IMG/VR virus record: IMGVR_UViG_3300006802_000165
Span: 1-45,289 of that record
Strand: one strand, 5' to 3'
Length of the DNA stretch: 45,289 nt
From: a virus
Made by a program: the position numbers and the translations under genes. Position 1 is the stretch's first letter, and each line of letters begins with the position of its first letter. Positions 2,530 through 45,289 of this stretch are shown here, piece by piece. The notes beneath the pieces are model-generated. The model was not told the DNA's origin. It made no database searches and was given only the letters and a program-made list of their open reading frames with translations.

Positions 2530-3080
2530 TAGGTGCCACCTGTGATGATTCGACCCTTGGCCGAGTTCATGAGATCCTTCTTAAATTCTTCAGTTTCAGC
2601 GGTCTCGGTTCCAGACCATTTCTTGGATCGAAGGGAATTAGCCGCTGCTTGATCCCCAGTGGTTCTACCCACCCAATCGGCCACCCGGTGCTTCTCTTCG
2701 ATGTTGTCTCGCTCCATACTACGCTTGGCCTTGGCCCTGTCTCGAATCCCCTTCTTCATGGATTCTGCCATCTCTTGGGCAGGACGAAGCCGGTTCCGGA
2801 GCCAATCCTGAGTGGGGGGATGCCAGTTGGGAGGCGTCGGGAAAGCCTCCAACTCCATGACGATCCCAATCCCATCTCGCTTAGGATGGTAGATCCACTT
2901 TGACAGCACGAAGGTTTCGGCAATCTTGTGGTGGTAGACGAACAGATCGTCGATGCCGCTAAAACGCCGTGCCCAAAGAACCCATTCAGAGTCCGGCAGA
3001 ATCTCATGGTCTTCACCAAGAACAAGGCCCATGCCTGCGGCGTGGGCTCTTGCGTCAAATGTAATCTCGATCTCGCTCAA
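2529..3080 (-). CDS. Hypothetical virion-arm protein
   Basis: Encodes 183 residues. The N-terminal half is mixed alpha/beta with several aromatic residues (WVLWARRFSGIDDLFVYHH). The C-terminal half is strongly charged and helical (KKGIRDRAKAKRSMERD). The start lies 26 nt inside the end of the sigma-like gene. Some phages have a similar conserved protein near capsid and neck genes, but I cannot name a family. Role unknown. Confidence 0.7.
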   Translation of the reverse strand: MSEIEITFDARAHAAGMGLVLGEDHEILPDSEWVLWARRFSGIDDLFVYHHKIAETFVLSKWIYHPKRDGIGIVMELEAFPTPPNWHPPTQDWLRNRLRPAQEMAESMKKGIRDRAKAKRSMERDNIEEKHRVADWVGRTTGDQAAANSLRSKKWSGTETAETEEFKKDLMNSAKGRIITGGT

Positions 3081-3588
3081 TGAGACCTGCCCTTCTGAAT
3101 TTAGGAAGGATGTGGTTTTTTATCCAATAGGTGACTGTCGTCGGGGATTTGTACCCGTAAGCCTCGGCAATAGAGCGGTGGGTCATTCCCCCCACCTTCA
3201 TGAGGATAACGTCTATTTCTTTTTCTGTCAGATTCGGGGGCAACTCGGCCCTCGCGTAATCCTCAATGCCCCGGACAGACGTCTCCACAAACTCACTTTC
3301 GAGAATAACCCACTTGCTCTTGCGGTATCTCCATCCATGGAACTTGCCGTAAGCGTAAGCCACTCGGGGCCACAAGAAGTTTTTCAAGAACGTGATGACG
3401 GTAGCCTTTTCAGGGTCATACCGATCTACAAGAAGTTCGTGAGCAGTCAAATACGCCTGACTCAACAACTCTTCGTGAGTCCACAAAGCAAAGTGGCCCG
3501 ACTTCTTTACGTCGGCTACCCACTGCATCAAGAAACCAATATGGTCTCCAATGTCTTTACTTCGATTTCTTGGACTTCCAAGAGACAC
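3055..3588 (-). CDS. Sigma-70-like / HTH transcription factor
   Basis: Encodes 177 residues from a GTG at 3588 with AAGGG about 9 nt upstream. Residues about 36-80 resemble a sigma region 2 helix set (THEELLSQAYLTAHELL, then YDPEKATVITFLKNFLWPRV). Residues about 120-165 form a region-4-like helix-turn-helix: LTEKEIDVILMKVGGMTHRSIAEAYG followed by SPTTVTYWIKN. It is therefore a likely sigma or sigma-like factor that could redirect host RNA polymerase, or a related DNA-binding protein. It lies inside the virion arm, between small basic proteins and neck genes, overlapping both neighbours. Promoter specificity cannot be read from the window. Confidence 0.65.
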   Translation of the reverse strand: MSLGSPRNRSKDIGDHIGFLMQWVADVKKSGHFALWTHEELLSQAYLTAHELLVDRYDPEKATVITFLKNFLWPRVAYAYGKFHGWRYRKSKWVILESEFVETSVRGIEDYARAELPPNLTEKEIDVILMKVGGMTHRSIAEAYGYKSPTTVTYWIKNHILPKFRRAGLIERDRDYI

Positions 3589-3781
3589 GTCCGGGTCCCT
3601 TCTTTGCAGAGGTTCCCTTGCGTGTGCATTGAGACTTGGTGGGACGACAAGCAGGGTAAGGCCGCTTGCTTCCGCCCTTAGCCGACTTTCGACCGCACGC
3701 CTTACCAGTCTTACAGTCGATCCAGCCCTTGCCGTTGTTCTGAGAGAACCACTTCTTAAGACCAGTTTTCTTCTTAGCCAT
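3557..3781 (-). CDS. Small Lys/Cys-rich basic protein
   Basis: Encodes 74 residues from the ATG at 3781; a longer in-frame reading to 3802 adds only an unlikely hydrophobic leader. It begins MAKKKTGLKKWFSQNN and contains GWIDCKTGKACGRK and ACRPTKSQCTRKG, so four cysteines sit in a very basic protein ending in Lys/Ser. This matches short phage proteins of unknown function with a WFxQNxGxGWxDCKTGxxCGR pattern. It is the last member of a cluster of such proteins downstream of the capsid gene. DNA compaction or capsid-interior binding is a guess from charge. Confidence 0.8.
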   Translation of the reverse strand: MAKKKTGLKKWFSQNNGKGWIDCKTGKACGRKSAKGGSKRPYPACRPTKSQCTRKGTSAKKGPGRVSWKSKKSK

Positions 3782-3828: not shown

Positions 3829-3842
3829 CTCAGATGCCGGGG

Positions 3843-4120: not shown

Positions 4121-4121
4121 G

Positions 4122-6747: not shown

Positions 6748-7654
6748 TGTGAATTACCTCACGCTTTAGAGTCGCCACCGGGATCGGAGAGCGACCGGAG
6801 CAGTTGATCGGAAGTCCAGTCACGCAACTGGGCTTCAACATCACCGAAAGACTTGCCCTTGGTGTCTGGCACCTTGACGGCTCCTTACGGTGAAGAATCT
6901 CGGTCTGCCCCGCCGTTTCCGGAACTCGTCCAATCTTGGACGTATCTCCGATTACCGTGAGCATATCCTTTGCAACCTTGTTGGCTGCCTTTTGAACTTC
7001 TTCGCCGAGCCACGAATCATCGAAGGTCCCGGCTGCATTCCGACGCTGTCGAAGGTTTTCGAGGGCTTGAGCCCTGACTCTCTCAGACAGGCTGGTCTTA
7101 ACGGACTCCGCTTCATCAGGAGTGCGGTTCTGTGCGACCCATTCCATTAGAAGTTTCCCATCAGAGTCTTCTTCAATCGAAGAAGAAACTGCATTTTCCA
7201 TATTTTGATGGAGGAGTTGGGCACGGAGACGAGTAATTTCTTCGTTGTTCTTTTGAGTCGCCTGCTCAAGTGCGGGGTTAGTGGGAGGCACTTCTGGCTG
7301 TGACGGTGTGTTTTCAGCCACGGGGGCCTCCTGATCGTAAATCTTCACCCATTCTTCAACCTTCTCTTGCGGGTAGTTAGAGGCCAGAAGGATGTTCTTG
7401 GCATCCTGCTTTCTGGTCTCGTTGTCTGTTGCGGGATCCATGAGACGAACAGTCGCCTGCTGGAATGCTTCAAGACTCTGGGCGTATTCCTGAAGTTCGC
7501 CGTAGTTTTTTGCTACTTCGGCGAGATCGGTCGCGGAATACTCTTCTCCCCCCACTTTGATCGTCTGGTCCAGATCAATGGGGGGCGGAGTTTGACTTCC
7601 GTCCGGGGTTGAAGCCTCAGAAGTCTCTTCTACGGATGTCGTCTCTTCAGCCAA
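6707..7654 (-). CDS. Scaffolding protein, apparent C-terminal frameshift
   Basis: The annotated frame gives 315 residues. Residues 1-255 look like a scaffold: acidic N-terminus (MAEETTSVEETSEAS), long charged helices and coiled-coil-like segments. After about residue 256 composition changes to a Cys/Pro/Ser tail that runs 41 nt into the capsid gene. In the -1 frame, 6872-6759 encodes a natural-looking charged helix ending 12 nt before the capsid start. One extra G in the AAGGAG at 6881-6886 would join both parts into about 298 residues. Position between portal and capsid supports the scaffold role. See the separate ORF entry. Confidence 0.8.
   Translation of the reverse strand: MAEETTSVEETSEASTPDGSQTPPPIDLDQTIKVGGEEYSATDLAEVAKNYGELQEYAQSLEAFQQATVRLMDPATDNETRKQDAKNILLASNYPQEKVEEWVKIYDQEAPVAENTPSQPEVPPTNPALEQATQKNNEEITRLRAQLLHQNMENAVSSSIEEDSDGKLLMEWVAQNRTPDEAESVKTSLSERVRAQALENLRQRRNAAGTFDDSWLGEEVQKAANKVAKDMLTVIGDTSKIGRVPETAGQTEILHRKEPSRCQTPRASLSVMLKPSCVTGLPINCSGRSPIPVATLKREVIHNGTFSQLGGYPLR
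6759..6872 (-). CDS. Alternate-frame C-terminal scaffold segment or restart ORF
   Basis: A GTG at 6872 is preceded by AAGGAG at exactly 8 nt, and a TAA in the same frame overlaps that ribosome site. The 37-residue product has KSFGDVEAQLRDWTSDQLLR, then SLSDPGGDSKA, an amphipathic charged helix of the sort with which scaffolds bind capsid protein. It may be (a) the true scaffold C-terminus displaced by a one-base sequencing deletion, (b) a separately initiated peptide, or (c) reached by ribosomal frameshifting. No classical slippery heptamer is visible, so (c) is least favoured. Confidence 0.6.
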   Translation of the reverse strand: MPDTKGKSFGDVEAQLRDWTSDQLLRSLSDPGGDSKA

Positions 7655-9644
7655 GGTTGGCTCCTTGCATCATGCCGGGACCCGGTTGTGGACCGGCGGG
7701 TTGTGGGGCTTGCTCTGCAAACGCTGCAATTGAATCTGGATTCGGAACCATCGCAGGAAGCGAAGCACCCATGAATTGAATCAATGCTTCACGATACTTC
7801 TTGAACTCATCGACAATCCGAGGATCCGCCTTCGTCATCAGAGGCCCAGACATAAACGAACTAAGGACTCTCAACTGCAACTCAGGCTTGCTGGTGTGTG
7901 GGGTAATGACAATCTCACCCGGCTCTGTACCATTGCCGAAAAGATTCAGAATGTTTTGAACGACCTGTTCATATCCAGACTGATCTTCGTCCATCCACAT
8001 TGCAAAGTCAAGTCCCTCCTTCAGGGCAAACAACTTGAAGGCTTCTGGGTCCATGAGCCCCGACTGGAGAAGTTGAAGTGCCTCCTGCTTCCTAGCCACC
8101 TCAGACCGGGGATTGACTTGCTTAACTGCGAATGTCAGGTGAGAAACATTGGGGATTGGATTGTTCTGGAAGGAGATCTGGCTGTTGTCAAAGTCGATGA
8201 CCGCCCCTGCAAGATTGAGATCAAGACTCTTTACTGGGATGGCTCTAGGGGAGATGAAGAGTTCTCGGCTGGCGTTAGCAACCATGCTTCGATACATCCG
8301 GCCCCAAGCCTGAACAACACCCATAGTCGGGTTGGTCATGGCCTTGTTGATCTGCTCATCAAGGAACTGAAGCCCAGAAGCAGAGTCAACTCGCCCCTTC
8401 TCCTGAAGAAGGTCTTGGACCGGGTTGATGCCTTGCATGAGTTGCTTGGCGAATGCAGCGGTCTTGCCGGGGATGTCACCCGCATTGTGGGGCGAGATCG
8501 TGAACGGACTGAACTTCTCGTTCAGCGGGTCCGGAGCATAGGAAATCATCCTCAGACCATCGCCGACTTCTCGGAGGATCGAGCGTTCGTTGAAAGAACC
8601 TTGGGGCATAACGACAACCCCGTACCGATCCATCTCTCTCACGTTGTTGAAGAGAGCCTTCAGCATCTTCTCCATCTCACGATTGATGGAGAACAAGAGA
8701 TCGAAAAGACCGGCACCATGGAACGAACCGTTCTCCATGAACCGAGCGAAGCCGATGGGGCAGTAGGTCTGAGTGGAAGTAAGGTCTTGATCGTCAATCA
8801 GGTAATCACCAGAACAGATGATGTAACGCTCGCAAGTGCCCCTGACCCCATCAATCCAAAGTTCACGGACCCTCACAACGGTCATCGAATCAGTGGCCGA
8901 GGAGTTGTATCCCTTGTTGTTGAAAGGGTTGACGCTATGACCACTGCCCTGAGTGTCGTCCTCTCGAGGATCTTCAAGAGGGTCCCCGACTTGGATGTCG
9001 TAGTACTCCATCTCCTCGAGGTTGCTCTTGATGCGGGGACCGAATTTCTCAATCAGGGTTTCAAGAGGAACAATCCTCTGGCGGATGATTCCGGACTGCT
9101 TCGTGTAATCCTGTCCCAAGGACGGGAACGGAAGAATCTCCTTCGGGTGAATGACCTCCAGATCACCTGTCAAGCCAATCGTCTCGTGTTCTGTGATATG
9201 CCCCTGAATGCCACAAGACCCCAGAGATGTGAACAGGTGGGCAAACTTAGTCGAGACTTCTGCAATCTGCTCGTCTGATACAAGAGCATCTGCAAGTACC
9301 TGAGCCGTAGCACGCTGCCTGATCATTGGCAGGCTGGTCCCAGTACGAAGAACCTTTGGCCGAAGATCCATGCTGGCAAGCCGGGCCGAAACCCGGTCAA
9401 TCGCAGACAGCATCTCCTGACTCTGGAACTCCATGTTCCCCTCTTCGTCAAGATAGTGGGGGGACAGATGGCCCGAGGCGGGATCAAAAACGTCGAATCG
9501 ACGCATCCCGTTGAGGTAGTAGTAAGTCAAAAGCCAAGTGATTCGCCGGTACTGGAGACGGGAGATCTCCTTTTCGGCGTGGTCACGAATGACCTGACAG
9601 ATTTCAATCTTCTTCTTGGGAAGTTTGAACTGGTGCTGAGGCAT
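7647..9644 (-). CDS. Portal protein
   Basis: Encodes 665 residues. An N-terminal helical region (RDHAEKEISRLQYRRITWLL) is followed by a beta/alpha core and the phrase FSINREMEKMLKALFNNVRE. A helical crown region has SGLQFLDEQINKAMTNPT, typical of podovirus-like portal stems. The C-terminus is Pro/Gln/Gly-rich and probably disordered. It lies between terminase and scaffold, and its length fits large portals of short-tailed phages. It forms the dodecameric DNA channel at the capsid vertex. The stop overlaps the scaffold start. Confidence 0.85.
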   Translation of the reverse strand: MPQHQFKLPKKKIEICQVIRDHAEKEISRLQYRRITWLLTYYYLNGMRRFDVFDPASGHLSPHYLDEEGNMEFQSQEMLSAIDRVSARLASMDLRPKVLRTGTSLPMIRQRATAQVLADALVSDEQIAEVSTKFAHLFTSLGSCGIQGHITEHETIGLTGDLEVIHPKEILPFPSLGQDYTKQSGIIRQRIVPLETLIEKFGPRIKSNLEEMEYYDIQVGDPLEDPREDDTQGSGHSVNPFNNKGYNSSATDSMTVVRVRELWIDGVRGTCERYIICSGDYLIDDQDLTSTQTYCPIGFARFMENGSFHGAGLFDLLFSINREMEKMLKALFNNVREMDRYGVVVMPQGSFNERSILREVGDGLRMISYAPDPLNEKFSPFTISPHNAGDIPGKTAAFAKQLMQGINPVQDLLQEKGRVDSASGLQFLDEQINKAMTNPTMGVVQAWGRMYRSMVANASRELFISPRAIPVKSLDLNLAGAVIDFDNSQISFQNNPIPNVSHLTFAVKQVNPRSEVARKQEALQLLQSGLMDPEAFKLFALKEGLDFAMWMDEDQSGYEQVVQNILNLFGNGTEPGEIVITPHTSKPELQLRVLSSFMSGPLMTKADPRIVDEFKKYREALIQFMGASLPAMVPNPDSIAAFAEQAPQPAGPQPGPGMMQGANLG

Positions 9645-9906
9645 TACGAAGGTCCTTCGCGGCTAGGCCACCGGGCTTCCAATTTGGAGGTACGTCAAAA
9701 GGGTTGAAATGAATGTCCGAAAGATTCAGATTATTAGTTGCTTTCGGCGGTTGTTGGACCGGAAGATCCACATTCTTGTCGTGGGCGTAGTAAGCCCTAG
9801 CCATTGCTTCGTACAGGAAGTACGGAATCGTGACTGGCTGGTGGGCAGGATCAGACTCTGCTCCCCCCACTTGGGGGGTCTGCGGCGGCTCTTGCGAGTA
9901 GTTCAT
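9604..9906 (-). CDS. Small Pro/Asn-rich protein between terminase and portal
   Basis: Encodes 100 residues. The ATG at 9906 lies inside the terminase end (56-nt overlap) with GGAG about 8 nt upstream, and the stop lies 41 nt inside the portal gene. Key phrases are VTIPYFLYEAMARAYYAHD and NLSDIHFNPFDVPPNW. No known family. The overlaps and good ribosome site support a real gene; its position suggests a head-assembly or portal-associated role. Confidence 0.65.
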   Translation of the reverse strand: MNYSQEPPQTPQVGGAESDPAHQPVTIPYFLYEAMARAYYAHDKNVDLPVQQPPKATNNLNLSDIHFNPFDVPPNWKPGGLAAKDLRNASAPVQTSQEED

Positions 9907-11791
9907 TTACAAACTCCGGGCTAATGGACCCCAACTTGTAAGCCAAGGGGGTTCCTGCGTCATCTGTCAGTTCACCGTCAAGCATCTTCTCCTCGACGGT
10001 TCTTTCATCCTCTATATCCTCTGGGTTTCGGTGGATCCTGCCTTTGAGGATGTTGCCCGACATCGAAACGGTGTCGAGGTGGTCATCCTTGGCAAGGCCA
10101 CCGTCAGCGACCTCCGGATTGAACTGCTCGATCTGGTCGAATAGGTTCGTCCAGTGGCGGTCCATCCGGCGTTCCAGCGGGAACTTGATAAGGCCGTTCT
10201 CGAACCGGAACTGGAGAGCCCCGATCCGGGCGGACTTCGAGATCATGCCCACCTTGAGGGGCACGATCTTGGGCATGTGGGCTACCCCGAACATCTCGGA
10301 CGCCCGCTGCTTCACCAGACTATCGAGGTTCTGGTACAGGGCGATGCTCTGGCGGACCACTTCCGGGTGAATGGAAGGGACCCTCCACTTGTCTGCAATC
10401 TGAAAGATGTTCTTGATCAGGGTGTTCTCGTCGCACTGGGCACCCCAGATATCCAACACGAACAACTCGTTTTCAGGGGTGGCAGCCATCACAGTTGCAA
10501 CCTTGAAGTCCGAGTCGCCGGTAGCCGTCCAAGAAGTGTCGACCGTCATGAAGACCCACGATTCCTTCAAGAAATCGCAGATCGGCATCTTCTTGGCGTT
10601 GCCCTCCGGATCCTTCCAATTGATGAGGGTCGCGGATTCTCGGGGATTGAGGCCATAGTCGGCATCGACGCTGGTCAACCACCAACGATGGCTGTCGTCT
10701 AGTTCGGGGAAGAACTGGTCTTCACTACTGCCGGGATCCGCCATGTACTCCGACGCGAAGTTGGCTGACCCGATCTGCTCCTTGATCTCCTCAAGGCTGA
10801 TCCGCTCTTTGAGCCGAGGATCTTCTTCCTTCTGCTTCCTGTCTACCGGCCACATCTCCGGCCAGCAAGAAATCAGTTTGTCTTGCTTGTCCTTGTAGGC
10901 GGCCTTGATGATCATCCGGGACCAGTGGTCGAACCGGGGATCCCGTGCCTTCAAACCCTCTTGGCTTTCCTGAGTCTCCATGGCGTACCACGCATAGTGG
11001 CGACGACTCACGAAAGTAGCGAGCCACCGGAGGCTGGTGCCGGGCCTTGTGATCATGGGCATGACCACCTTGAAGAGCAGGGTGTCCATGTACGAACGGA
11101 GGACGGACATCGATGTCGATGCACGCGGATCGTACTCAGGGTCATCAAGGACGTAGCAGCGGGGGCGACCACCACGCTGACGAGACTCTGACGAGATCGC
11201 CCGGAACCACGAGCCGTTCTTCAGATACATTAACTCGATGCCGAAGGACGCTTCGCCACGACGAGGCACAATTCGCTCATCAGGAAACTCAGGGCTCCAA
11301 TCGTCGAAGATACGAGCGTTCTCTTGGAACTGCGTCTTGATGATCTGGCCGGTCTGCTTGGCGTTGTCGTTGGTTGAGGTCGCGTAGATGAAGGAGTAGC
11401 CGGGTCTCGTCAACATCTGAAGAAGGATCGACTTCCGGATGCAGTTGGACTTGGCAAAGCCTCGCGGTGCGATGGCAATGGATGCTCGGTTCTGTGCCCA
11501 CTCCTTATAGATGCCCAAGTGACCGTCCGGTAGGGGGACTGGATCCTCGTCGTAGAACATCGGATTGAAGTCGTCGGCTTCGTCGGGGCACAAGTACCAA
11601 TGATCAAAGAACAACATGGCCCCAATAAAACGATCCGCCTTGTCTTGCGGACTCGTTACAGGAACCAACCATTGGCGACAGGCATTGACTCGGGCTTCAC
11701 GTTGACCATCTTCCGTCAACTCCATGTAGTCAGGAGGCAACGGAAACAGTTCGTTGCCCTCAGCCCTTGTCTCTATCCTTTTGACTCGCAT
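9851..11791 (-). CDS. terL: Terminase large subunit
   Basis: Encodes 646 residues. The ATPase domain has a Walker A-like loop at residues 108-115 (APRGFAKS, with the non-classical A-P-R start seen in phage terminases). Walker B VLDD is at 214-217. The RNase H-like nuclease domain begins with the acidic strand VFMTVDTSWTATGDSD (D418) and ends with a DDHLD cluster. It pumps and cuts DNA at the portal. It sits just upstream of the portal and overlaps the 101-residue gene by 32 nt. The start ATG at 11791 has only a weak ribosome site, so translation is probably coupled. Confidence 0.93.
   Translation of the reverse strand: MRVKRIETRAEGNELFPLPPDYMELTEDGQREARVNACRQWLVPVTSPQDKADRFIGAMLFFDHWYLCPDEADDFNPMFYDEDPVPLPDGHLGIYKEWAQNRASIAIAPRGFAKSNCIRKSILLQMLTRPGYSFIYATSTNDNAKQTGQIIKTQFQENARIFDDWSPEFPDERIVPRRGEASFGIELMYLKNGSWFRAISSESRQRGGRPRCYVLDDPEYDPRASTSMSVLRSYMDTLLFKVVMPMITRPGTSLRWLATFVSRRHYAWYAMETQESQEGLKARDPRFDHWSRMIIKAAYKDKQDKLISCWPEMWPVDRKQKEEDPRLKERISLEEIKEQIGSANFASEYMADPGSSEDQFFPELDDSHRWWLTSVDADYGLNPRESATLINWKDPEGNAKKMPICDFLKESWVFMTVDTSWTATGDSDFKVATVMAATPENELFVLDIWGAQCDENTLIKNIFQIADKWRVPSIHPEVVRQSIALYQNLDSLVKQRASEMFGVAHMPKIVPLKVGMISKSARIGALQFRFENGLIKFPLERRMDRHWTNLFDQIEQFNPEVADGGLAKDDHLDTVSMSGNILKGRIHRNPEDIEDERTVEEKMLDGELTDDAGTPLAYKLGSISPEFVNELLARAAADPPSGGSRV
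9863..9878. repeat. C6-ACTT-G6 perfect hairpin
   Basis: CCCCCCACTTGGGGGG is a perfect 6-bp stem with a 4-nt loop near the terminase 3' end, inside the overlap with the 100-residue gene. It includes one copy of the genome-wide CCCCCCAC motif. It could act as a pause or as an mRNA structure near the translation start at 9906. Confidence 0.5.
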
Positions 11792-14195: not shown

Positions 14196-14206
14196 GCTGT
14201 TAACCC

Positions 14207-15751
14207 TTATCGGGGATAGGAACCCACGGTGTATCCGTGCGAGTAGGGATCAACCATGATCGGCTGACCGTTACCGAACCCAAGGAAGTGACCGATTCTC
14301 TGGAGAGGGTTGGGACCGAAGAAGCCTCGGTTGGAGTCGCTTGCAGTAAACGGCCTTCGGTTCCCCTGAGCGTCAACCGGCATCATCGCCAGAGGGTTTG
14401 CTGCTTCCTCGGGAGTAAGACCACGAACTCCAATCATGGGGTTTGCCTGTGCGCCTGTGAGGTATCCCCCCACTGCGTCCATGGCCCCTCCATACTGAGG
14501 AACAGGGACTCCACCCGCTGGCGGGTATCCCATTCGTTGACGAAGGTTTGCTTCGTTCAAAGAAGGGTCGTGTCCCTGCCTTGCGGTTGCGTCATCGAAG
14601 TCAGCGTAGTTGTAACCGGGGACTCCTCCGGTCATGGCTCCGGGTGGAGCGGCAGGAGGGGCCGCATTCAGTGCGTTGTTGTCGTCCACCGCCTCAACGA
14701 AACGCCGCTCTCGCTGTGCTTGGCCCGCCGCATCATATTGATTTTGGATATGGGCTCCGCGAGCATCAGATCCCTGCTGGTACATGGGCTGATTCTGAGC
14801 CCCGTAACCACTGTTATACGGCATTCCAACAGGAGCCGGAAGCATCGGTGTTGGAAGCGTGCCGGGAGTTGCCTGACCATAGTGAGTCACCGTGGGCAGG
14901 TACGGTGCTGGTGCTGGGCCAAGACCCGAGCCTTCAAAACCCGGAGGGTTGTAAGGGGTCGGGGGAGGAAGTTCATCGGCATATGGCCCGCCGCCACGCT
15001 GGTCCGTTGAGAAGGGACCGGGGTTGGGACGCATCGAGGGGTAGTGAGCGTAGACCACCGCCTGAAGAGGATTCGGCCCAAGTTCCTGCTGAACAGGAGG
15101 AGCCTGTGCAGGCATGAGGGTCGGGGCGGGAGCGGCGGGCACAGGAGACTCGACGATCTCCGATCCTTGCCCCCCACCATATACCTCTTCCTCGACGGGC
15201 TGAGGAAGCACGGGCGGGGTGTTTCGGCGGGCTTCGGCCTCTGCTTCTGCCGCACGGGTCTCTGCAACAAGTGCTTCTACGTCTTTTCGGTCTTGTGCAA
15301 GTTTTTCTTCGAGACGGTCTAGGTCTCGCTCAACCCGTGCGAACTTCTTGTCTTTGTTCCGACGCTTGGTCGCTTCTCTGGACGCCTCATCGCGTTCTAT
15401 CTGACCCTTGGTGCGACCACGACTTGACACGACATTCATTTCTCGTCGCCGATCGTCGATCGTCTTTGTTCTCGCGGGGTTCCGGCCACCAAACGGTCCC
15501 GCGTTTACGCGGTAGTTGGCGATTTCAGTCGCCTTCAGTGCATCGTTTGTAGGCGAGTACTCGTTTCGCGGAGCATTTTGCATCATTGTCATGAGAAGTC
15601 GCATGACATCGTCGAAACTTGTGGTACTCTGCTTGGTGCGGGAATCCTGACCCTGCTTCGTCGAATCCTTGCCCTTGAGTTCCTCGCCCTTTTTGGTCGT
15701 GGGATCTTTCTTGTCCGTCGTGGAATCTTTCTTGGCCTTGTCCTTTAGCAT
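14207..15751 (-). CDS. Large low-complexity virion-arm protein
   Basis: Encodes 514 residues. The N-terminus is a Lys/Asp/Ser/Thr low-complexity run (KAKKDSTTDKKDPTTKKG). A coiled-coil segment around residues 120-170 (ERDLDRLEEKLAQDRKDVEA) is followed by a long Pro/Gly/Gln/Tyr-rich region and a C-terminus with PLQRIGHFLGFGNG. AAAGGT about 8 nt before the ATG is the ribosome site. It is the first leftward gene at the divergent centre of the genome. Function unknown; composition suggests a flexible virion or internal protein. Confidence 0.75.
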   Translation of the reverse strand: MLKDKAKKDSTTDKKDPTTKKGEELKGKDSTKQGQDSRTKQSTTSFDDVMRLLMTMMQNAPRNEYSPTNDALKATEIANYRVNAGPFGGRNPARTKTIDDRRREMNVVSSRGRTKGQIERDEASREATKRRNKDKKFARVERDLDRLEEKLAQDRKDVEALVAETRAAEAEAEARRNTPPVLPQPVEEEVYGGGQGSEIVESPVPAAPAPTLMPAQAPPVQQELGPNPLQAVVYAHYPSMRPNPGPFSTDQRGGGPYADELPPPTPYNPPGFEGSGLGPAPAPYLPTVTHYGQATPGTLPTPMLPAPVGMPYNSGYGAQNQPMYQQGSDARGAHIQNQYDAAGQAQRERRFVEAVDDNNALNAAPPAAPPGAMTGGVPGYNYADFDDATARQGHDPSLNEANLRQRMGYPPAGGVPVPQYGGAMDAVGGYLTGAQANPMIGVRGLTPEEAANPLAMMPVDAQGNRRPFTASDSNRGFFGPNPLQRIGHFLGFGNGQPIMVDPYSHGYTVGSYPR

Positions 15752-15785
15752 GAAATTGACCTTTATGAGTCTGGAGACTTAAAGC
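15752..15785. other. Divergent gap between the two genome arms
   Basis: Only 34 bp separate the leftward start (15751) and the rightward start (15786). The gap holds both ribosome sites (AAAGGT on minus, GGAG on plus). A TTGACC at about 15757 is followed 17 nt later by TTAAAG, a weak plus-strand promoter look-alike, but its start point would fall at or after the ATG. Divergent promoters must therefore lie inside coding DNA or elsewhere. Confidence 0.5.
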
Positions 15786-17186
15786 ATGACCACCCAAACG
15801 CAGACGCAGACCCTTGCGTCTCCCGAACCCTTGCAAGTGGCACGATACCTCTTGGGTACGAGGTTCTCTACTCCAAACAATCGAAACGGATTGTGGTATT
15901 GGCGAGGCAATTTCTTCGAATGGTACGGAGAAAGGTGGCAAAAGCGAGATCTTGAGTGGGTTGAGTCCGCATTGTGGGTGTCTTTGGAGAACGTCACCTA
16001 CAACCAAGCCACCCAAAACGGCCAGAGGCAGGTTCGTTACGCGCCCGACATTAACAAGATAAAGGGGGTTGTGCGTGCGTTGCAGGCGTTGCAGACGCTT
16101 CCGCACGAACACACCCCCGCTTGGATCACAGCACCCAAGACCAAGGAGACCAGAACCCTTGTGTCTTTTGCCGACGCCGTTCTTGACGCCAAGACTGGTG
16201 ACAAGTTTGATCGTGACGAAACATTCTTCGACCCGAACGTGCTTCCCTGCAACTTCGACCCCTCCGCAAAGTGCCCTATCTGGCACCAGTGCTTGAGGGA
16301 GTGGAGTGGCGGCGACCCGGAGTGGAGCAATCTACTCCAAAGGATGTTCGGGTATTGCCTGCTCCCGCACCGCGATTATGCCAAATGGTTCCTGATGTAC
16401 GGCAAGATTCGTGGGGGCAAGGGTACCATCATGACGATCCTCAAAGCCCTACTTGGGGAGGGCTATATGGGCACCTGCCTTGAGGATATCGCTGGTCAGT
16501 TCGGGCTCTGGGGCATCGAACAAGCAAGGGTCATGGCGATCAATGAAGTATCCGAGATATCGAATCGTGAAGGAGAGGCTGCGTGCCGTGTCCTCAAGTC
16601 AATCGTGGGGCGGGACCCGATCTCCATCAATCGTAAATTCGAGCAGCCACTCCGGAACGTGGTCGTGGATGCCGTCCCGATCATGCAGTCAAACGAGATT
16701 CCGCGTCTCCCCAACAAGGGGCTCGGGCTGTCTGGGAAGATGGTTCTACTTCCCTTCACGGTGAGTTTCGCGGGGCGAGAGAACTACCGGCTGGCAGAAC
16801 AGTTGCTGGCCGAATTGCCCGGTATTGCGTACTGGGCATGGCAGGGGGCCAAGTTCATAGAGGCAGAATCGGACCCCAAGCGTAAGTTCCCCATGCCGGA
16901 TCGGTCCTTGGCGTTGATTGACGAGTACCACGCCGTCAACAACCCTATCGACGAGTTCCTGTCTGCCCGGTTTGAGGAGAAGGAAGGCAGTTTTGTGTCT
17001 TCCGAGGCCCTCTTTACCCACTGGAAAGAGTGGAGTAAGGAGTTGCGAGTGCCCCCAATGAGCCAAAACCAGTTGATCTACCGGCTTGTTGAAGGCACCA
17101 CGTGGAACCTTACAAGGGCTCGTATTGGGTCTAAGCGGACCCGTGGGCTGCGTGGGCTAGCAATGCGACCACAAGCGACCAGTTGA
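15786..17186 (+). CDS. Replicative SF3 helicase (D5/P4 primase-family C-terminal type)
   Basis: Encodes 466 residues. Walker A is at residues 206-213 (GKIRGGKGT within WFLMYGKIRGGKG). The Walker B-like strand is VMAINEVSEI, and a sensor-type Asn appears in PIMQSNEIPRLP. This is the layout of the D5/P4-type phage/plasmid primase C-terminus: a D5_N-like region, then a superfamily 3 helicase. The N-terminal archaeo-eukaryotic primase domain usually fused in this family is not visible, so it is probably helicase only and needs a separate primase. It opens the rightward arm and is followed at once by iteron-like repeats, fitting origin unwinding. Confidence 0.85.
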   Translation: MTTQTQTQTLASPEPLQVARYLLGTRFSTPNNRNGLWYWRGNFFEWYGERWQKRDLEWVESALWVSLENVTYNQATQNGQRQVRYAPDINKIKGVVRALQALQTLPHEHTPAWITAPKTKETRTLVSFADAVLDAKTGDKFDRDETFFDPNVLPCNFDPSAKCPIWHQCLREWSGGDPEWSNLLQRMFGYCLLPHRDYAKWFLMYGKIRGGKGTIMTILKALLGEGYMGTCLEDIAGQFGLWGIEQARVMAINEVSEISNREGEAACRVLKSIVGRDPISINRKFEQPLRNVVVDAVPIMQSNEIPRLPNKGLGLSGKMVLLPFTVSFAGRENYRLAEQLLAELPGIAYWAWQGAKFIEAESDPKRKFPMPDRSLALIDEYHAVNNPIDEFLSARFEEKEGSFVSSEALFTHWKEWSKELRVPPMSQNQLIYRLVEGTTWNLTRARIGSKRTRGLRGLAMRPQATS

Positions 17187-17948: not shown

Positions 17949-17967
17949 CTCCTCCCTCCCCTCTCTC

Positions 17968-20977: not shown

Positions 20978-21007
20978 GGGGGGAGGTGGGTACGCCTGCC
21001 TCCCCCC
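20978..21007. terminator. 9-bp G/C hairpin
   Basis: GGGGGGAGG (20978-20986) pairs with CCTCCCCCC (20999-21007) with a 12-nt loop; no long T-run. It contains one CCCCCCAC copy and lies between the 209-residue and 194-residue genes. Confidence 0.6.
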
Positions 21008-21026
21008 ACTTTGTGGAAGGAATCAC

Positions 21027-30455: not shown

Positions 30456-30757
30456 CATGGGATACCGAAAGTGTTCATCCCCCCACTGATGACCCTGACC
30501 CCCAGTGGGAGGCCGCAAAGCGAGCAGATCCCGAAGCCCTGCGGCTGGAGTTGGAATCACTTGCTAGTCTTGTAGACTCAATCGACACCGCCATTCACGC
30601 AATGCAGAGGCAGATCCATGGACTTAGAGACGGACTGGAACAACACTCCTCCCCCCACCCCCAACGGGATTCCGTGGACAAAGAGCATGTCTCGGGAGGG
30701 CTACGAGTATCTTCAAGCGTTCGGGATCAACGCGATCATTCCTCCCCTCCGTTCTAG
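30452..30757 (+). CDS. Small coiled-coil-like hypothetical protein
   Basis: Encodes 101 residues. An acidic Pro-rich start (VHPPTDDPDPQWEAAKR), then a helix DPEALRLELESLASLVDSID and AIHAMQRQIHGLRDGLEQH. The last 45 residues overlap the nuclease gene in another frame and look less natural. The ATGA overlap with the previous gene supports translation. Confidence 0.6.
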   Translation: MTWDTESVHPPTDDPDPQWEAAKRADPEALRLELESLASLVDSIDTAIHAMQRQIHGLRDGLEQHSSPHPQRDSVDKEHVSGGLRVSSSVRDQRDHSSPPF

Positions 30758-31943
30758 TGACTACGGCACCTGCCTGTCAGACCCCTTTGCCTACTTCATG
30801 GCACGACGGCTTGGTGTAGTGCCCGCCGTTAAATGGTCGAAGGCCATGAACCGTGGCACTTGGATGCACCTCAGATTCCAGCACTACCACAGATCTCTGG
30901 CGGACGCCCGTGACCGGATGGAACGGGCACTGGCTGATAGGCTTTCAGAACTTTCTGAAAGTTGCAAAGACGCAGGCATGGTGGGTTCTGCGTTGAGCAA
31001 GATCCTCGAACGCGAGGAGCGTGACATGCGTTCCTCTTTGGCTTGGTATGAAGCAGCACGAGCCCTACCCTGCTTGGACGGCCAGTCGTTCGAAGATGTA
31101 CTTCTCAGCCCCCGCTGGCACCGAATGGGTACCGAGTACCGGCTCGTTACGTCTATCAAGACCGACGACCGGGCTCGGCCTATTCGGTGTATCTGTCAGC
31201 CGGACCTCCTCCTTTACAACAAGGAGGACAACACCGTCTGGATCGTGGACCTGAAGACCACCGCCATTTCCCCCAAGATGCGGTTGGCTAGTGTGCCCAT
31301 CGAATTCCAATGCGAACACTACATGTTTAGTGTCAATGAGTTGCTGAAGACTGGACAAATACAGCAAGCCTTTAAGATCCCTAAAGACGCAACCCTTGGT
31401 GGTATGATGCACCTAGCCATCAGAAAACCAAGCATTGAGTTCGGGATGAAGGACCGAGACTACACGCTGGACATGTCGCCGTTGAAGTCTGGACCCCGCA
31501 AGGGCTTGCCCCGTAACACCAAGATCTACGAGGGCGAACCACGGTTCGACAACTACCTCGACAGATGCGATGACTGGTATCAAGCACGGAAAGACTACAT
31601 CGACAAGGCACCGGAGTGGGCCGAAGATCCACCCGTCAACATTTCAATGACAAAGGCGTCCCTAGTACTTGACCCCGCCATCAACAAACGGTATCGTGAC
31701 CGTGTAAGGCTGGTCCAACACTACGCCCTCTGCAAGCCATACCCAGAGAACTTCCCGATGTCCGATCGGGTCGCCCACATGGGCAGGTTCTCTACCTACT
31801 CCCCCTTCATGCTGTCGCCTGTAGGGGATTGGCCGTCGCTGATTCAGAGCGAGGGCTTCACGCTTCGTCGTCGGGATGATCCCATCCCCGAGGAGGTGGA
31901 GTTTGACGTGATCACGGAACCCGGCTCGGAGTTCGAGGAATGA
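30618..31943 (+). CDS. RecB/Cas4-like PD-(D/E)XK nuclease
   Basis: Encodes 441 residues; GAGG lies about 8 nt before the ATG. The nuclease motifs in order are G80-x3-H84 (MNRGTWMHLRF), D196 (CQPDLLLY), D211-x-K213 (WIVDLKTTA) and Q231-x3-Y235 (EFQCEHYMF). These match the RecB-like nuclease fold, as in phage Cas4-like exonucleases. No Cys cluster of true Cas4 is obvious. It lies upstream of a RecA-like ATPase and an SSB-like protein, suggesting 5' or 3' end resection in recombination. Confidence 0.85.
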   Translation: MDLETDWNNTPPPTPNGIPWTKSMSREGYEYLQAFGINAIIPPLRSSDYGTCLSDPFAYFMARRLGVVPAVKWSKAMNRGTWMHLRFQHYHRSLADARDRMERALADRLSELSESCKDAGMVGSALSKILEREERDMRSSLAWYEAARALPCLDGQSFEDVLLSPRWHRMGTEYRLVTSIKTDDRARPIRCICQPDLLLYNKEDNTVWIVDLKTTAISPKMRLASVPIEFQCEHYMFSVNELLKTGQIQQAFKIPKDATLGGMMHLAIRKPSIEFGMKDRDYTLDMSPLKSGPRKGLPRNTKIYEGEPRFDNYLDRCDDWYQARKDYIDKAPEWAEDPPVNISMTKASLVLDPAINKRYRDRVRLVQHYALCKPYPENFPMSDRVAHMGRFSTYSPFMLSPVGDWPSLIQSEGFTLRRRDDPIPEEVEFDVITEPGSEFEE

Positions 31944-32391: not shown

Positions 32392-32731
32392 CACATTCGA
32401 ACAGGACATTGCAGAGGCAGTGATCCGCCCGAAGTTGCAGAGGGTCTGCGAGAACTACGGTGCCCTCAACACGAAGGCGGATCTCCGCAAGGCGTTCATC
32501 GACCAAGAAGGCGTAAGCATGTCGGCTGCCAAGTTTGAAAGTTACCTCAACATGCTCAACATCACCTTCGTGAAGAAGGTTGAGATCAAGGGCCTTTATC
32601 CCGATGCACCGCCCCCGGCAGTGGCCGGGGCGGATGCCTCGGAAGAAGAAGTCGTATTTGATAATGAAGATGTTGAACCGTCAAGGTTCAGAAGCCAGCA
32701 ACGACGTAACGACATGTTCGGATTGGCATGA
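32381..32731 (+). CDS. Hypothetical acidic protein of the recombination operon
   Basis: Encodes 116 residues from the ATG at 32381, with GGAGG about 10 nt upstream; the longer frame from 32315 lies in the wHTH gene. Helical N-terminus (QDIAEAVIRPKLQRVCENYG), DNA-binding-like middle (KAFIDQEGVSMSAAKFESYL) and an acidic tail. Possibly a small HTH-type protein; not recognised. Confidence 0.7.
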   Translation: MSDDTFEQDIAEAVIRPKLQRVCENYGALNTKADLRKAFIDQEGVSMSAAKFESYLNMLNITFVKKVEIKGLYPDAPPPAVAGADASEEEVVFDNEDVEPSRFRSQQRRNDMFGLA

Positions 32732-32760
32732 CTCACACAACTCTTATGAAGGGACAACCG

Positions 32761-33627
32761 ATGGGCTTTACCAAACTCGGTTTCTCAGGACAGCGGATGA
32801 AGTATCCGCTCAACGCATTGTTCGGCATGGTGGTTGGAGAACAGAACACGGGCAAGTCGTACCTGTTCCAGTCCAACCCCGACGCTTTCATCATCAACCT
32901 TGATCTCTCGTCCACCGTGACGCCTGAGTGTCGTGCCACCATCTGGCCCGGCGTTGACGAAAGCGGCCTGCCGATCGACATCGACAACAAGCATCTGGTC
33001 CTGACTTGGGACAAGGTGCTGGAGAAGAAGCAGCAACTCATCGACATGGCAAAGGCTGACGAACCCCGGCCCAAGTGCGTGGTGCTTGACACCATCACGC
33101 CCTGCGTCCGACTTCTCAAGCCGTACATCGCCAAGAAGATGGACCGCTCCTCCTTCGATCAGGCTCACGGCCCAGCCGCCTACGACAAACTCTTCGACGA
33201 GATCCTGTCGTTCGCGTTTGACCTACGCCAAGTAGGTTACGGGGTGTGGTTCATTGCCCACCTCAGCCGTGAGTTTCTGCAAGTCTCCGACGATGGAGCC
33301 AAGCAGGAAGAGTTGACTCTCAATCTCTCGGCAGGCATGGTCCGTCGCCTGACGCCAGCCGTCGAGATGATTGCTCCCGTGTGCTGCGATCGACGCTCCA
33401 CCACAGTGATGGAGAAGAAGATTGTGAAATCCGGCACGAAGGAGATCGAACGGAAGATCCCGAAGGAGCAGATTGTCTACGATCGCAAGTTGGCATTTGA
33501 CGATCCCAGATTCTCCCGTATCATCCGTACCCGTACCACCAACCGTATGCCCAACATCCCTCTGGATCCTGTTGATCCTTGGGGTTCATTCGAGTCCGCG
33601 TTCGATAACGCAAACAAGGAATCCTGA
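32761..33627 (+). CDS. RecA-like (Sak4-type) ATPase
   Basis: Encodes 288 residues from the ATG at 32761 (AAGGGA 8 nt upstream); an ATG at 32728 in an ATGA overlap adds 11 residues and is the alternative. Walker A is GEQNTGKS (26-33), and Walker B is CVVLDTITP. The short RecA core without N- or C-terminal RecA domains is the Sak4-like phage recombinase/annealing helper design. Its neighbours (Cas4-like nuclease before, SSB-like protein after) match known Sak4-SSB modules. Confidence 0.8.
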   Translation: MGFTKLGFSGQRMKYPLNALFGMVVGEQNTGKSYLFQSNPDAFIINLDLSSTVTPECRATIWPGVDESGLPIDIDNKHLVLTWDKVLEKKQQLIDMAKADEPRPKCVVLDTITPCVRLLKPYIAKKMDRSSFDQAHGPAAYDKLFDEILSFAFDLRQVGYGVWFIAHLSREFLQVSDDGAKQEELTLNLSAGMVRRLTPAVEMIAPVCCDRRSTTVMEKKIVKSGTKEIERKIPKEQIVYDRKLAFDDPRFSRIIRTRTTNRMPNIPLDPVDPWGSFESAFDNANKES

Positions 33628-34155: not shown

Positions 34156-34199
34156 CTCCCCCCACTAAGACCTCATGGGCCACATAAGGTCGGGGGGAG
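34156..34199. terminator. Two-part hairpin after SSB-like gene
   Basis: CTCCCCCC pairs with GGGGGGAG, and inside it GACCT pairs with AGGTC with a 13-nt loop. It holds a CCCCCCAC copy. There is no T-run; it may protect the 3' end or attenuate. Confidence 0.6.
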
Positions 34200-34262: not shown

Positions 34263-34422
34263 CGTATTCTCTTGGATGTCCAGTCTGGGACGCTGGATAC
34301 TCTATATACCAAACTAGTCCCCCCACTTCCGGCATGGGGATACCGTTGCCACGGACCCCATGCCTTCATCTCTTTCTCCTTGGCCCTATACTCCTTCCAC
34401 CAAAGGGGTATGGGGCTTTCTT

Positions 34423-40480: not shown

Positions 40481-40963
40481 TTACTGGATGAGGGATGAGA
40501 ACTCGTCAAGAGATTCGGAAGTGCCCATGTTGTATGCGACTTCTTCCAAAAGATCGGTGCGGGGGTTGCCACCCAGAACGACGGCACCCTGCGGGAGAAT
40601 GCGGCCCGCGAGAATCTGGTTGTGCATGTGGGGGGACATACGCTCGATGGCGGCGATGTTCCGCTGCACCATCTCTTCTATACGGGCGGTCTTCAATCTA
40701 TCGGAAGTGAGCCCTTGAAGAGATTCCATTTCTCTCTTCGCCTGCTCTTCGACAGAAGGCATTCCAATCCTGTCAAGACCAGATCCTCGAGCAAATCCTC
40801 CCGTAAGAGGAGACGCAATATCTTCAGCCAAAAAAGCAGCCGTAGGTGCAAGAAGCCCGAACGTCGCAAAGGGGTTCTCCTTCGCAAAACTCTTGATGCT
40901 GTCTTTCTGGGCAAACCCAGAAGCGGACTTTAAAAGAGATTTAAGGGCTTTCAAAGCACTCAT
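40481..40963 (-). CDS. Internal virion protein, hypothetical
   Basis: Encodes 160 residues. An amphipathic N-terminus (MSALKALKSLLKSASGFAQK), a hydrophobic patch (PFATFGLLAPTAAFLAED) and a charged C-terminus. Similar in build to the 240-residue neighbour, with which its start overlaps. Likely an ejected or core protein; no family recognised. Confidence 0.65.
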   Translation of the reverse strand: MSALKALKSLLKSASGFAQKDSIKSFAKENPFATFGLLAPTAAFLAEDIASPLTGGFARGSGLDRIGMPSVEEQAKREMESLQGLTSDRLKTARIEEMVQRNIAAIERMSPHMHNQILAGRILPQGAVVLGGNPRTDLLEEVAYNMGTSESLDEFSSLIQ

Positions 40964-41682: not shown

Positions 41683-41995
41683 TAGTCAGCCTCTCGACAA
41701 CAGGAACCACCGTAAGGGTACCAAGTCCTACCGTAGAAGTTTCCAACTCAGAGTCGTACTTCTTCCAAAGAAAAGCCCGATCTCTAGTCAGGACCCGCTT
41801 GTTGCGGTGTTCCCACAGAAACTGGCGGATCGCCTTGGGAGACGGAGTGCCCTCGACCTTGAGTTGGGGGGACGGATGCTCGTAAGGAGCGACCCACTCC
41901 GGCATATCCCCCCACTCCATATCGGGGTGGTCGAGCAGGATCATGTCGGACTCCGATTCAACGAAGTCCTTTGAGATCTTCTTCCAGTCCCTCAA
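41672..41995 (-). CDS. Small acidic/aromatic hypothetical protein
   Basis: Encodes 107 residues. Trp-rich acidic start (MRDWKKISKDFVESESDMIL; DMEWGDMPEWVAPYEHP) and a basic helix (KAIRQFLWEHRNKRVLTRD). It is linked by ATGA-type overlap to the 543-residue gene. Possibly a chaperone or small core protein; unknown. Confidence 0.65.
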   Translation of the reverse strand: MRDWKKISKDFVESESDMILLDHPDMEWGDMPEWVAPYEHPSPQLKVEGTPSPKAIRQFLWEHRNKRVLTRDRAFLWKKYDSELETSTVGLGTLTVVPVVERLTNGI

Positions 41996-43623: not shown

Positions 43624-44642
43624 GCGAGGGCTCCGAGAAGGTCTTCGTCAAGACCGGGGAAGTCACCAGATCCAGTCGTCATGCCAAACTGGAAGTAGGA
43701 AGCAAGGACAGGAAGGAACGAAACCGGAGAGAATGGATTAGCCGCAACCATGTTCGCGTAGTTGCTGAGGCCCTGAGCCTCGTAGTTGGCGGCGTTAGCG
43801 ATTGCAGACTGCTGCATCGCAGCACCCGCCTGATTCAAAGCAGCGGCCTGACTTTCAAACCCAGCCTGCAACTGACCGGCTTGGCCGTAGAGACCTGCAC
43901 GCTGCATCCCCAACCCCGCCAAAGCGTTGTTGTAGTTGGATGCCTGCTCCGTCATGATCTGAGCAGTCTTGGCTTGGCTCTGGAGTTCAAACTGCCGCTG
44001 AGCGGCAATAGCCTGAGGATCGCCCATCTTGGCTTGAGAACTGAGTTGCTGGTGGGTGGACCTGTTCTGGGCAGCGAGGCCCATTGAGATGCTGGACGCC
44101 TGCTGGGCACTCAGATCCTTGAAGTCGCTCACGGCTGTATCGGCAGCATCCTTAATCCCCCCAGCAACATCTGCTCCAAGGCCGGACATTTGAGAAGCCT
44201 GTCCCGTCATGAAGTCAAAGGCGTCCTGTCCTCCAGCACGGATAGCGTCAGCGTTGGTGCCAATGGCAGTCCCATAGTTGCCCATGGCATCCATGAAGTT
44301 GCCGTAGTTCATATCATTCGCATTGAGGAGATTCTGGTAGTCCTGCAAAGCGGCGGCTTGAAACTGCTGCATCCCCTGCTGTTGGCCGGGGGCAACCACA
44401 GGAGCCTGACTGTAGGTAATCCCAGACCCCGCCATAACGCCGCCCATGCTGTTGGGAACGTAATTCTCGTTCATGCCAGAGGCGGGGTTGTAGGTGTAGC
44501 CCGGCGGCGGAGGACCAAAAGAGCCCTCTCCAGTGGCGGGATTGATCAGGCTAGCAAAGTCGCCGAAACCACTGTTGCCACCGTCGCCGGGACCAAAGGT
44601 CCCGAACGATCCGCCTCCGCCAAATGCTCCGAATGAACTCAT
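43620..44642 (-). CDS. Internal virion protein, Ala/Gln-rich
   Basis: Encodes 340 residues. A Gly/Phe/Pro-rich flexible N-terminus (FGAFGGGGSFGTFGPGDGG) and long Ala/Gln/Asn-rich helices (MTEQASNYNNALAGLGMQRA; GLYGQAGQLQAGFESQAAAL). A hydrophobic patch near the end (FSPVSFLPVLASYFQFGM). It resembles podovirus internal proteins that enter the host. TGATG junction with the fibre gene. Confidence 0.7.
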   Translation of the reverse strand: MSSFGAFGGGGSFGTFGPGDGGNSGFGDFASLINPATGEGSFGPPPPGYTYNPASGMNENYVPNSMGGVMAGSGITYSQAPVVAPGQQQGMQQFQAAALQDYQNLLNANDMNYGNFMDAMGNYGTAIGTNADAIRAGGQDAFDFMTGQASQMSGLGADVAGGIKDAADTAVSDFKDLSAQQASSISMGLAAQNRSTHQQLSSQAKMGDPQAIAAQRQFELQSQAKTAQIMTEQASNYNNALAGLGMQRAGLYGQAGQLQAGFESQAAALNQAGAAMQQSAIANAANYEAQGLSNYANMVAANPFSPVSFLPVLASYFQFGMTTGSGDFPGLDEDLLGALA

Positions 44643-45289
44643 CAGGTGTTCCTTTCCGTAGTATCGGTCGAAGTTGTGCGACCCCTACAGATCATTGCCA
44701 TCAGTTTATAGTCTAGATCCGGGCAGAAGATCTCGATTCCGGGGTTCAGGGCAGAGTCCTGAATACCATGCCTTCCCGTAGTGCTTAGACCAGAAACCGT
44801 GAACGCGGCATAATCAGAAGACTCCCCGTTCTGAATAGAGTCTCCAATAATGGCCCCGGAAAAATCAGCAGGAAATGCTGAAACAGCAGGAGAATCAGAG
44901 GATGTGTTGTAGGCAAGGCCCCGGAAGAACTTGTAACCAGAAACCCCTCCCCACACATCAGAGAAGTGGCATCCCACTGACGACAACTGCTTGTTCTGGA
45001 ACAGATCAAACGAGGTAATGATCTGCTCATCCTTGGTTCGAACCATGGGGAGGGCTCCCCCGACATACCTGAAGAACATGGGGCTAAGAGCAAGCACATC
45101 GCCTTCAGAAAGGCTGGAGGATACATTTCCTCTTGGGGTAATGAAGGAACGGGTGCCAGAGCCACCGTAAGTACCGTCCACCGTGACGGTCCCCCCACTA
45201 GCCTTGAGGATCTGGAACTTCTGGCCCACCTTCGTCTGGTCGGTTGAGGACACCACATAGACGTAGGCCCCGCAAAGATCGAGGGCTGC
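44642..45289 (-). CDS. Tail fibre C-terminal part (open at window end)
   Basis: The frame is open from 45289 to the stop at 44642 (215 codons), with an internal ATG at 45256 that has no ribosome site. Residues include ALDLCGAYVYVVSSTDQTKV, GTRSFITPRGN and FFRYVGGALPMVRTKDEQII, a beta-rich virion style. Codon phase matches the fragment at 1-912 when base 45289 is joined to base 1, giving one 519-residue protein. If sequence is missing between the ends, the fibre is longer. Confidence 0.7.
   Translation of the reverse strand, partial: AALDLCGAYVYVVSSTDQTKVGQKFQILKASGGTVTVDGTYGGSGTRSFITPRGNVSSSLSEGDVLALSPMFFRYVGGALPMVRTKDEQIITSFDLFQNKQLSSVGCHFSDVWGGVSGYKFFRGLAYNTSSDSPAVSAFPADFSGAIIGDSIQNGESSDYAAFTVSGLSTTGRHGIQDSALNPGIEIFCPDLDYKLMAMICRGRTTSTDTTERNT

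Follow-up and report, generated by a model that had tools for sequence, protein, structure and literature searches.

The virus record IMGVR_UViG_3300006802_000165 of IMG/VR comprises 45,289 nt, the whole of which (here called the window) was analysed. The window encodes a terminase large subunit on its minus strand and a family A DNA polymerase, a primase/helicase and an exonuclease, among others, on its plus strand (Table 1). Scattered through it, mostly on the plus strand, are copies of a C-rich 9-mer, TCCCCCCAC. There is good support for the motif being real, polar, under selection and spread through the lineage.

Counted on both strands, TCCCCCCAC occurs 19 times in the window, 16 times on the plus and three times on the minus strand, and is its commonest 9-mer. 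In 100 dinucleotide shuffles of the window the mean was 0.53 copies in all and the maximum three, and for the 16:3 split a two-sided binomial test gives a P of about 0.004 (hand arithmetic). The core CCCCCCAC is present in 20 plus and three minus copies. Our recount thereby reproduced the figures of the initial annotation, made from the sequence alone, which had placed them beyond chance. Runs of four, five, six and seven C number 124, 29, 25 and 2 in the window, those of exactly six nearly equalling those of five before the drop, and the corresponding G-runs number 122, 27, 18 and 2. According to a crude open reading frame (ORF) caller, seven plus copies lie in plus genes, seven in minus genes and two (34157 and 34318) outside called ORFs; the initial annotation had also noted copies in noncoding gaps. 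Two minus copies are found in minus genes and one in a plus gene. Since the plus copies are split evenly between plus and minus genes, the strand bias is not explained by gene direction.

Table 1. Motif copies and genes in the window. "Identical" gives the aligned relatives keeping the exact TCCCCCCAC, out of the relatives aligned at that site.
Feature	Coordinates	Strand	Remarks
TCCCCCCAC	2812..2820	-	identical 6/7
TCCCCCCAC	3187..3195	+	identical 1/1
TCCCCCCAC in minus gene	7547..7555	+	identical 5/6
TCCCCCCAC	9456..9464	-	identical 7/8
TCCCCCCAC in terminase gene	9862..9870	+	identical 1/8
TCCCCCCAC in minus gene	14465..14473	+	no aligned relatives
TCCCCCCAC	21001..21009	+	identical 0/1
TCCCCCCAC in DUF6117 gene	22441..22449	+	identical 0/4
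TCCCCCCAC in DNA polymerase gene	24164..24172	+	identical 1/5
TCCCCCCAC in metallophosphoesterase gene	27079..27087	+	identical 4/6
TCCCCCCAC in metallophosphoesterase gene (second copy)	27323..27331	+	identical 2/6
TCCCCCCAC	30478..30486	+	identical 1/1
TCCCCCCAC in exonuclease gene	30650..30658	+	identical 0/6
TCCCCCCAC outside called ORFs	34157..34165	+	identical 0/1
TCCCCCCAC outside called ORFs	34318..34326	+	identical 5/5
TCCCCCCAC in minus gene of 1310 amino acids	39771..39779	+	identical 1/2
TCCCCCCAC	40628..40636	-	no aligned relatives
TCCCCCCAC	41907..41915	+	no aligned relatives
TCCCCCCAC in minus gene	45190..45198	+	no aligned relatives
Terminase large subunit, orientation reference	9851..11791	-	PHROG phrog_38, E 4.1e-43
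D5-type primase/helicase	15786..17186	+	
DUF6117 gene	22223-22486		
Uracil-DNA glycosylase gene	22476-23162	+	
Family A DNA polymerase	23997..26129	+	
ERCC4-like nuclease	26120..26653	+	weak match, below Pfam cut-off (21.5 vs 24 bits)
PD-(D/E)XK exonuclease	30618..31943	+	
AAA_24 ATPase	32728..33627	+	by family resemblance presumably a Sak4-like recombinase

The near-matches that had been pointed out include a second form, AGTCCCCCC, in which the C-run is preceded by AGT; in the main form, C6 is followed by ACT, whose reverse complement is AGT. The second form is located at 1778, 12457, 34316 and 41318 on the plus strand and at 5135, 19890, 25546, 28268 and 29721 on the minus strand, mostly without AC after the run; the exceptions are 34316, which has AC, and 19890, which has seven C. 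Copies without a following C or AC number three on the plus and four on the minus strand, and this form thus has no strand bias. It is also found in relatives of the window's own dialect (A1, see below), e.g. G005 and G006.

A terminase search of viral contigs returned 74 loci, 100 to 43% identical, and a polymerase search returned 23. Whole-record counts of 30 chosen contigs found the 9-mer in 24, with only one to three copies in G002, G015, G022-G024 and G029. The window and 21 of those 30 (all but G001, G013, G016-G019, G021, G022 and G027) make up a set of 22 contigs from one group of uncultured phages, which share one gene order with differing start points and look circularly permuted. 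The terminase served to orient them and, in G014, G015 and G020, where none was found, the polymerase. Over these oriented contigs, copies of each contig's own form of the motif number 606, of which 428 are on the plus strand as defined by the window and 178 on the minus strand. The enrichment and orientation in relatives that the initial annotation had put forward as a check were indeed found: all 22 contigs are enriched and 21 lean towards plus, G030 being tied at 6:6; three contigs (G030, G028 and G008) have little or no bias.

Divided by local gene direction, the pooled 8-mers give plus to minus ratios of 253:124 in minus-transcribed, 165:73 in plus-transcribed and 71:38 in mixed regions. 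The same lean in both transcription blocks ties the bias to the genome strand and not to transcription, as had been claimed for the window. The copies are dispersed over both blocks at a density of about one per 1 to 4 kb. For sets of at least six copies, plus copies are spaced more evenly than random over the 22 contigs (Stouffer z -5.6, the contigs being related and not independent), and in the window alone the corresponding P is 0.10.

In every one of the 22 contigs, an unsupervised k-mer test puts a form of the motif at the head of both the 8-mers and the 9-mers. It is also top in many shorter loci of 9 kb and more, and is not the top 8-mer in L009, L013, L019, L023, L055, L068, L075 and others. 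Written on the C-rich strand, with a numeral for the length of the C-run, seven forms or dialects are distinguished: A1, TC6ACT, that of the window; A2, GTC6ACG; A3, C7AC (G002 and G015); B, C4ACCAGC (G023, G024, G025, G029 and others); C, TTC4GCTA (G026, G030 and L057); D, TTC4ACTA (G028 and L050); and E, C5ACT (L040, L041, L064 and L065). Their logos contain about ten informative bases, and no dyad was seen. In a terminase tree of 45 rows, made up of the window and 44 of the 74 terminase loci, the dialects track the branches, with E occurring in two lineages; L026, L062 and L069, which are too short or hold few copies, were left unclassed. The tree puts B beside A2 with weak support (88/63), a join flagged as a possible long-branch artefact, and A may therefore be a single branch or not. 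TC6AC and six-C runs are found in L009-L020, L022-L039 and some later loci, at guanine-plus-cytosine (GC) contents of 0.41 to 0.61, and are scarce or absent in L040-L062. Terminase identity provides no clean divide, as L021, at 76%, carries a form with seven C, and L043-L049, at 57-58%, lack TC6AC.

Shuffling of synonymous codons, with the proteins kept, gave 5 to 21 times fewer copies than observed in all 22 contigs. In the window it yielded 2.76 plus and 0.53 minus copies, against the observed 16 and 3, and a largest total of 7 in 100 shuffles, so that this check, also suggested at the outset, did not reproduce the counts. In a repeat with 60 shuffles, 2.63 plus and 0.38 minus copies in the window arose at old motif sites and 0.15 and 0.35 elsewhere; summed over the contigs, the figures were 47.6 and 18.9 at old sites and 10.2 and 6.2 elsewhere. 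About four fifths of the shuffled copies are located at old sites, where Pro-Pro-Thr, Gly-Gly and similar residues persist, and the plus lean of the shuffles comes mostly from these. The first null therefore understates the excess, and the residues at old sites may have been shaped by the motif itself.

Individual sites are conserved as well. Across alignments of the window with 13 relatives, the motif is unchanged in 34 of 67 aligned copies, compared with rates of 0.150 for 9-mers as a whole and 0.176 for the remaining C/G-rich ones; a same-composition control of 68/212 (0.32) is inflated by shifted copies of the motif itself. The 13 were drawn from 20 by dropping the near-identical L009 and L023, G002 (another dialect), L087 (the same record as G020), L012, L085 and L090; L166, L167 and L168 are one phage. 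With only L009 and L023 removed from the 20, 42 of 92 copies are identical (hand count). The comparison was extended to seven references, in the order window, G005, G004, G009, G003, G007 and G025 (dialect B). Plus copies were kept in 7/25, 11/17, 47/73, 39/44, 4/7, 12/12 and 39/64 cases and minus copies in 2/4, 2/4, 10/14, 8/17, 4/7, 5/7 and 29/40. The background was 0.099, 0.106, 0.196, 0.384, 0.149, 0.525 and 0.239 for all words of the same length, and 0.104, 0.176, 0.234, 0.390, 0.141, 0.566 and 0.286 for other C/G-rich words. Plus copies thus exceed both controls in all seven comparisons, at 1.9 to 6.1 times the all-word rate. Minus copies are clearly above the controls in five, two of which rest on four copies each, and by a small margin only for G009 and G007. 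Many individual sites have been gained or lost among relatives, exemplified by the copy at 9862. Given the outcome of both the codon shuffles and the comparison with relatives, a DNA-level function of the motif is well supported.

Read on the G-rich strand, the motif is GTGGGGGGA in the window, and GGCTGGTGGGG, TAGCGGGGAA and CTAGTGGGGAA are among the forms of other branches. The G-rich strands of six of the seven consensus forms contain RGYGG, A2 being the one without it; 31 of 20000 letter shuffles reached six or more such forms, the pattern having been picked after seeing the forms. Dialect B contains the whole E. coli Chi, GCTGGTGG (0.8% of letter shuffles), and dialect C contains AGCGG (3.6%). 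With proven Chi, the form found in the window has only the RGYGG core in common. Described Chi sequences are GCTGGTGG in E. coli (PMC8022716), AGCGG in B. subtilis, GAAGCGG in S. aureus, GCTGGCGC in P. syringae and GCGCGTG in Lactococcus (PMC5959072), and, as a putative Chi, GCGGTGGT in Caulobacter (PMC5443536). Phages needing concatemers have been reported to over-represent Chi, most strongly in P1-like and T5-like phages without recombinases (Bobay and colleagues, PMC3784561). As a positive control, the same k-mer method applied to phage P1 (NC_005856) ranks GCTGGTGG first among 8-mers. The initial annotation had offered a Chi-like recombination hot-spot, a replication or packaging polarity signal, a protein-binding site and protection from a host nuclease. 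A Chi-like site fits best, on sequence family, the P1 precedent and polarity, and is the best single reading, with the chances for and against it about evenly balanced. That the motif is a Chi site of a host enzyme is a more tentative claim, and the cellular sequence examined was without enrichment.

On the Chi reading, the G-rich strand form would make a helicase-nuclease of the RecBCD/AddAB kind, presumably owned by the host, stop degrading the end of the phage DNA and start recombination, from which the phage would be expected to benefit. As one gene order, circularly permuted, is common to the contigs, concatemers and headful packaging are probable, and the packaging cut would leave an open DNA end where the enzyme could enter. 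Chi is active towards an enzyme arriving from its 3' side, and a rule from lambda relates Chi orientation to the packaging cut. In the majority orientation, an enzyme that enters at the cut would come upon the G-rich strand from the 3' side, assuming that packaging runs, as a rule, in the direction of terminase transcription. The RecBCD of P. syringae is attenuated when entering from the 3' end (PMC5959072).

Several observations weigh against a Chi-like site. The bias varies from nil (6:6 in G030, 7:6 in G028 and 8:7 in G008) to 17:3, and such variation is not predicted by polar protection alone. Blocks of single contigs can be without bias or reversed (9:9 in minus-transcribed G007, 5:6 and 1:3 in plus-transcribed G025 and G028), and a block of G029 is likewise tied at 7:7. 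Minus copies are conserved too. In P1 itself GCTGGTGG leans only weakly, with 31 copies on the strand of pacA/pacB (terminase) and 19 on the other (P about 0.1, hand arithmetic). Furthermore, genes for an exonuclease and a Sak4-like ATPase are present in the window and in its A-type relatives, and these phages may therefore not depend on host recombination. The Chi reading is weakest on the side of the host: enrichment was not seen in any of the cellular sequence examined. One scan of cellular genomes, run with short peptides, yielded only one terminase relative, which lies in a Myxococcales metagenome-assembled genome (MAG). The MAG holds 36 TC6AC copies, 29 on three phage contigs and seven elsewhere, i.e. 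no cellular enrichment. Among the 139 other Myxococcota none stands out for AGTGGGGGGA, the highest being G168 with 24 copies against 12 for the reversed control in 5.9 Mb, and a Novosphingobium chromid, of which 400 of 1320 kb were sampled, held one GTGGGGGGA and no enrichment. Finally, if the signal were that of the host, other phages infecting it might be expected to carry it too, yet limited pair scans found no unrelated viral contig with the motif dispersed as a leading word.

In the MAG, AGTGGGGGGA has 21 copies against one for the reversed control (140 Myxococcota genomes were counted); the density in G168 is far below that of the phages. The MAG is G031 of the species collection, and its contigs C7, C18 and C72 (L169, L167 and L168) are one phage of the group, probably placed there by a binning error. 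The binning therefore says little on the host. Plasmid relatives of the DUF6117 gene, 13 in all, come from Agrobacterium, Rhizobium, Neorhizobium and Novosphingobium, which may be a weak hint at an alphaproteobacterial host; in 37 Myxococcota the only match to this gene was on the MAG's phage contig. Among named phages, no DNA relative was found for positions 10001-18000 of the window and no protein relative for the terminase (tblastn, phage collection), the AAA_24 ATPase, the exonuclease, the product of 12453-14195 or DUF6117; only the polymerase and helicase had matches, all under 60% identity. No tRNA genes were found in the window or in 49 of 60 stretches from relatives, and no paper on the motif was found among those listed in the library searched.

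The pair scans of viral contigs detect only motif pairs at one spacing, so that absence from unrelated viruses is not proven by them, and non-members were judged on the stretch scanned and a density cut, with partial follow-up. The TC6AC scans returned 20 and 18 stretches, in all 37 loci, of which eight are members of the group. L227, L231 and L248 had 1 to 18 weak protein hits. Among the others, L220 and L247 are arrays in which the copies stand close together at even intervals; G188, G199 and G201 hold four or five copies, mostly clustered, and G195 holds seven in 50.6 kb with other words leading. Scanning for CCCCACCAG gave 111 stretches with two members, and for TTCCCCGCT 32 stretches with none. 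Six B stretches passed the density cut (L254, L259, L288, L322, L347 and L360), and in L347 and L322 other words lead. Of the 143 B and C loci, the whole contigs of G203, G204, G209 and G224 and most of G205, G207 and G210 were inspected, and in none of these seven was the dialect searched for among the leading words. The unrelated, overlapping contigs G209 and G213 have TCCCCGCT at 6:1, absent from the six leading words of G209. That these scans found dispersed copies as a leading word in members of the group alone leans towards a reader owned by the phage or a little-sampled host. The scans also brought up other one-sided words: L347, a non-member by protein hits, has CCCCACCA at 0:11 over 11 kb, surrounded by other Cys-poor C-rich repeats, CCACCACC (1:17) among them. 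The unrelated contig G203 (IMGVR_UViG_3300037461_000559; L408-L410) has strand-biased GGGCCCGCT at 46:4 and CCCGCTGGG at 40:7, and the unrelated G224 (L411-L412) has CCCCGCAGG at 0:18 and other one-sided words, possibly a repeat.

A recombination, replication or packaging protein encoded by the phage could read the motif and co-evolve with it, the host Chi being uninvolved. We take this possibility seriously but lean against it. That the dialects follow the terminase tree is in its favour, although co-divergence with the hosts would yield the same tree. A dispersed leading word seen only in this lineage in four pair scans, the retention of TC6AC across the range of phage GC contents and the results from cellular sequence also fit. 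However, no candidate binder was identified. The A2 replication and recombination proteins are only about 39 to 54% identical to those of the window with the motif nearly the same, and the exonuclease and AAA_24 ATPase were undetected in most B contigs (crude ORFs). The likeness to known Chi, including the whole GCTGGTGG, would moreover be a coincidence. A phage-owned Chi-like system, in which an end-processing or recombination protein is paired with a polar ten-base signal that has drifted into at least six dialects independently of host Chi, is a tentative and rather doubtful proposal.

The remaining explanations are less probable. The motif could mark places where one strand of the virion DNA is nicked in a programmed manner, as known from T5-like, phiKMV-like and tf phages; its length, spread and dialects resemble the pattern of tf, but 178 of the 606 copies lie off the majority strand and are conserved too, which disfavours a strict nick model and makes nicking unlikely. 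Primer starts of the lagging strand, or another polarity signal of one-directional replication, would agree with the equal pooled lean in both transcription blocks, the rather even spacing at one copy per 1 to 4 kb and the presence of a D5-type primase/helicase. Primase recognition sites are usually about three bases long, however, as against ten for the motif, and the conservation of minus copies is not accounted for, so we regard this as very unlikely. A by-product of mutation or codon usage is hardly credible. Protein-keeping shuffles do lean the same way in most contigs, but mainly at old sites, and elsewhere give 16.4 copies compared with the 606 observed; many relatives have more six-C than five-C runs, and individual sites are conserved. 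At the level of counts a codon artefact was rejected, given the 5- to 21-fold deficit in the shuffles. Transcription-linked operators were also rejected, as the copies neither follow gene direction nor sit mainly between genes. Polar sequences of the host FtsK type were considered as well.

Chi sequences are known for few bacteria, and in one survey Chi went undetected for the majority of Proteobacteria (PMC8022716). If phage genomes do contain host Chi, applying a k-mer test to uncultured phages would reveal that Chi and narrow down the host. If the phage itself reads the signal, the motif would belong to a phage-owned Chi-like system, of which to our knowledge none is known. Either way, the dialects provide a graded series of related recognition sequences for testing how specificity changes.

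Comparison with known systems places the motif closest to Chi. Stoperators of cluster A mycobacteriophages are also dispersed asymmetric sites, but they follow transcription and are mainly intergenic, neither of which applies here. The nick sites of tf, phiKMV and T5 resemble the motif in being dispersed, strand-biased, variable between related phages and, in tf, of similar length. In tf, 14 nicks with a 9-base consensus are all on one strand, and relatives have a variant consensus at similar positions (PMC3517423), whereas the motif is found, and conserved, on both strands. With the Chi of RecBCD and AddAB six of the seven dialects share the RGYGG core, present in E. coli, B. subtilis, S. aureus and Caulobacter; unlike these the dialects carry runs of four to seven G, and A2 lacks the R. 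The known Chi of P. syringae, GCTGGCGC, and of Lactococcus, GCGCGTG, are themselves without that core. P1 uses the Chi of a known host, whereas the present group has several dialects and, in its A-type members, recombination genes. In P1 as in the window and its relatives, however, the signal is a short, asymmetric, G-rich word that heads the list of 8-mers, is dispersed over the genome and is commoner on the terminase strand.

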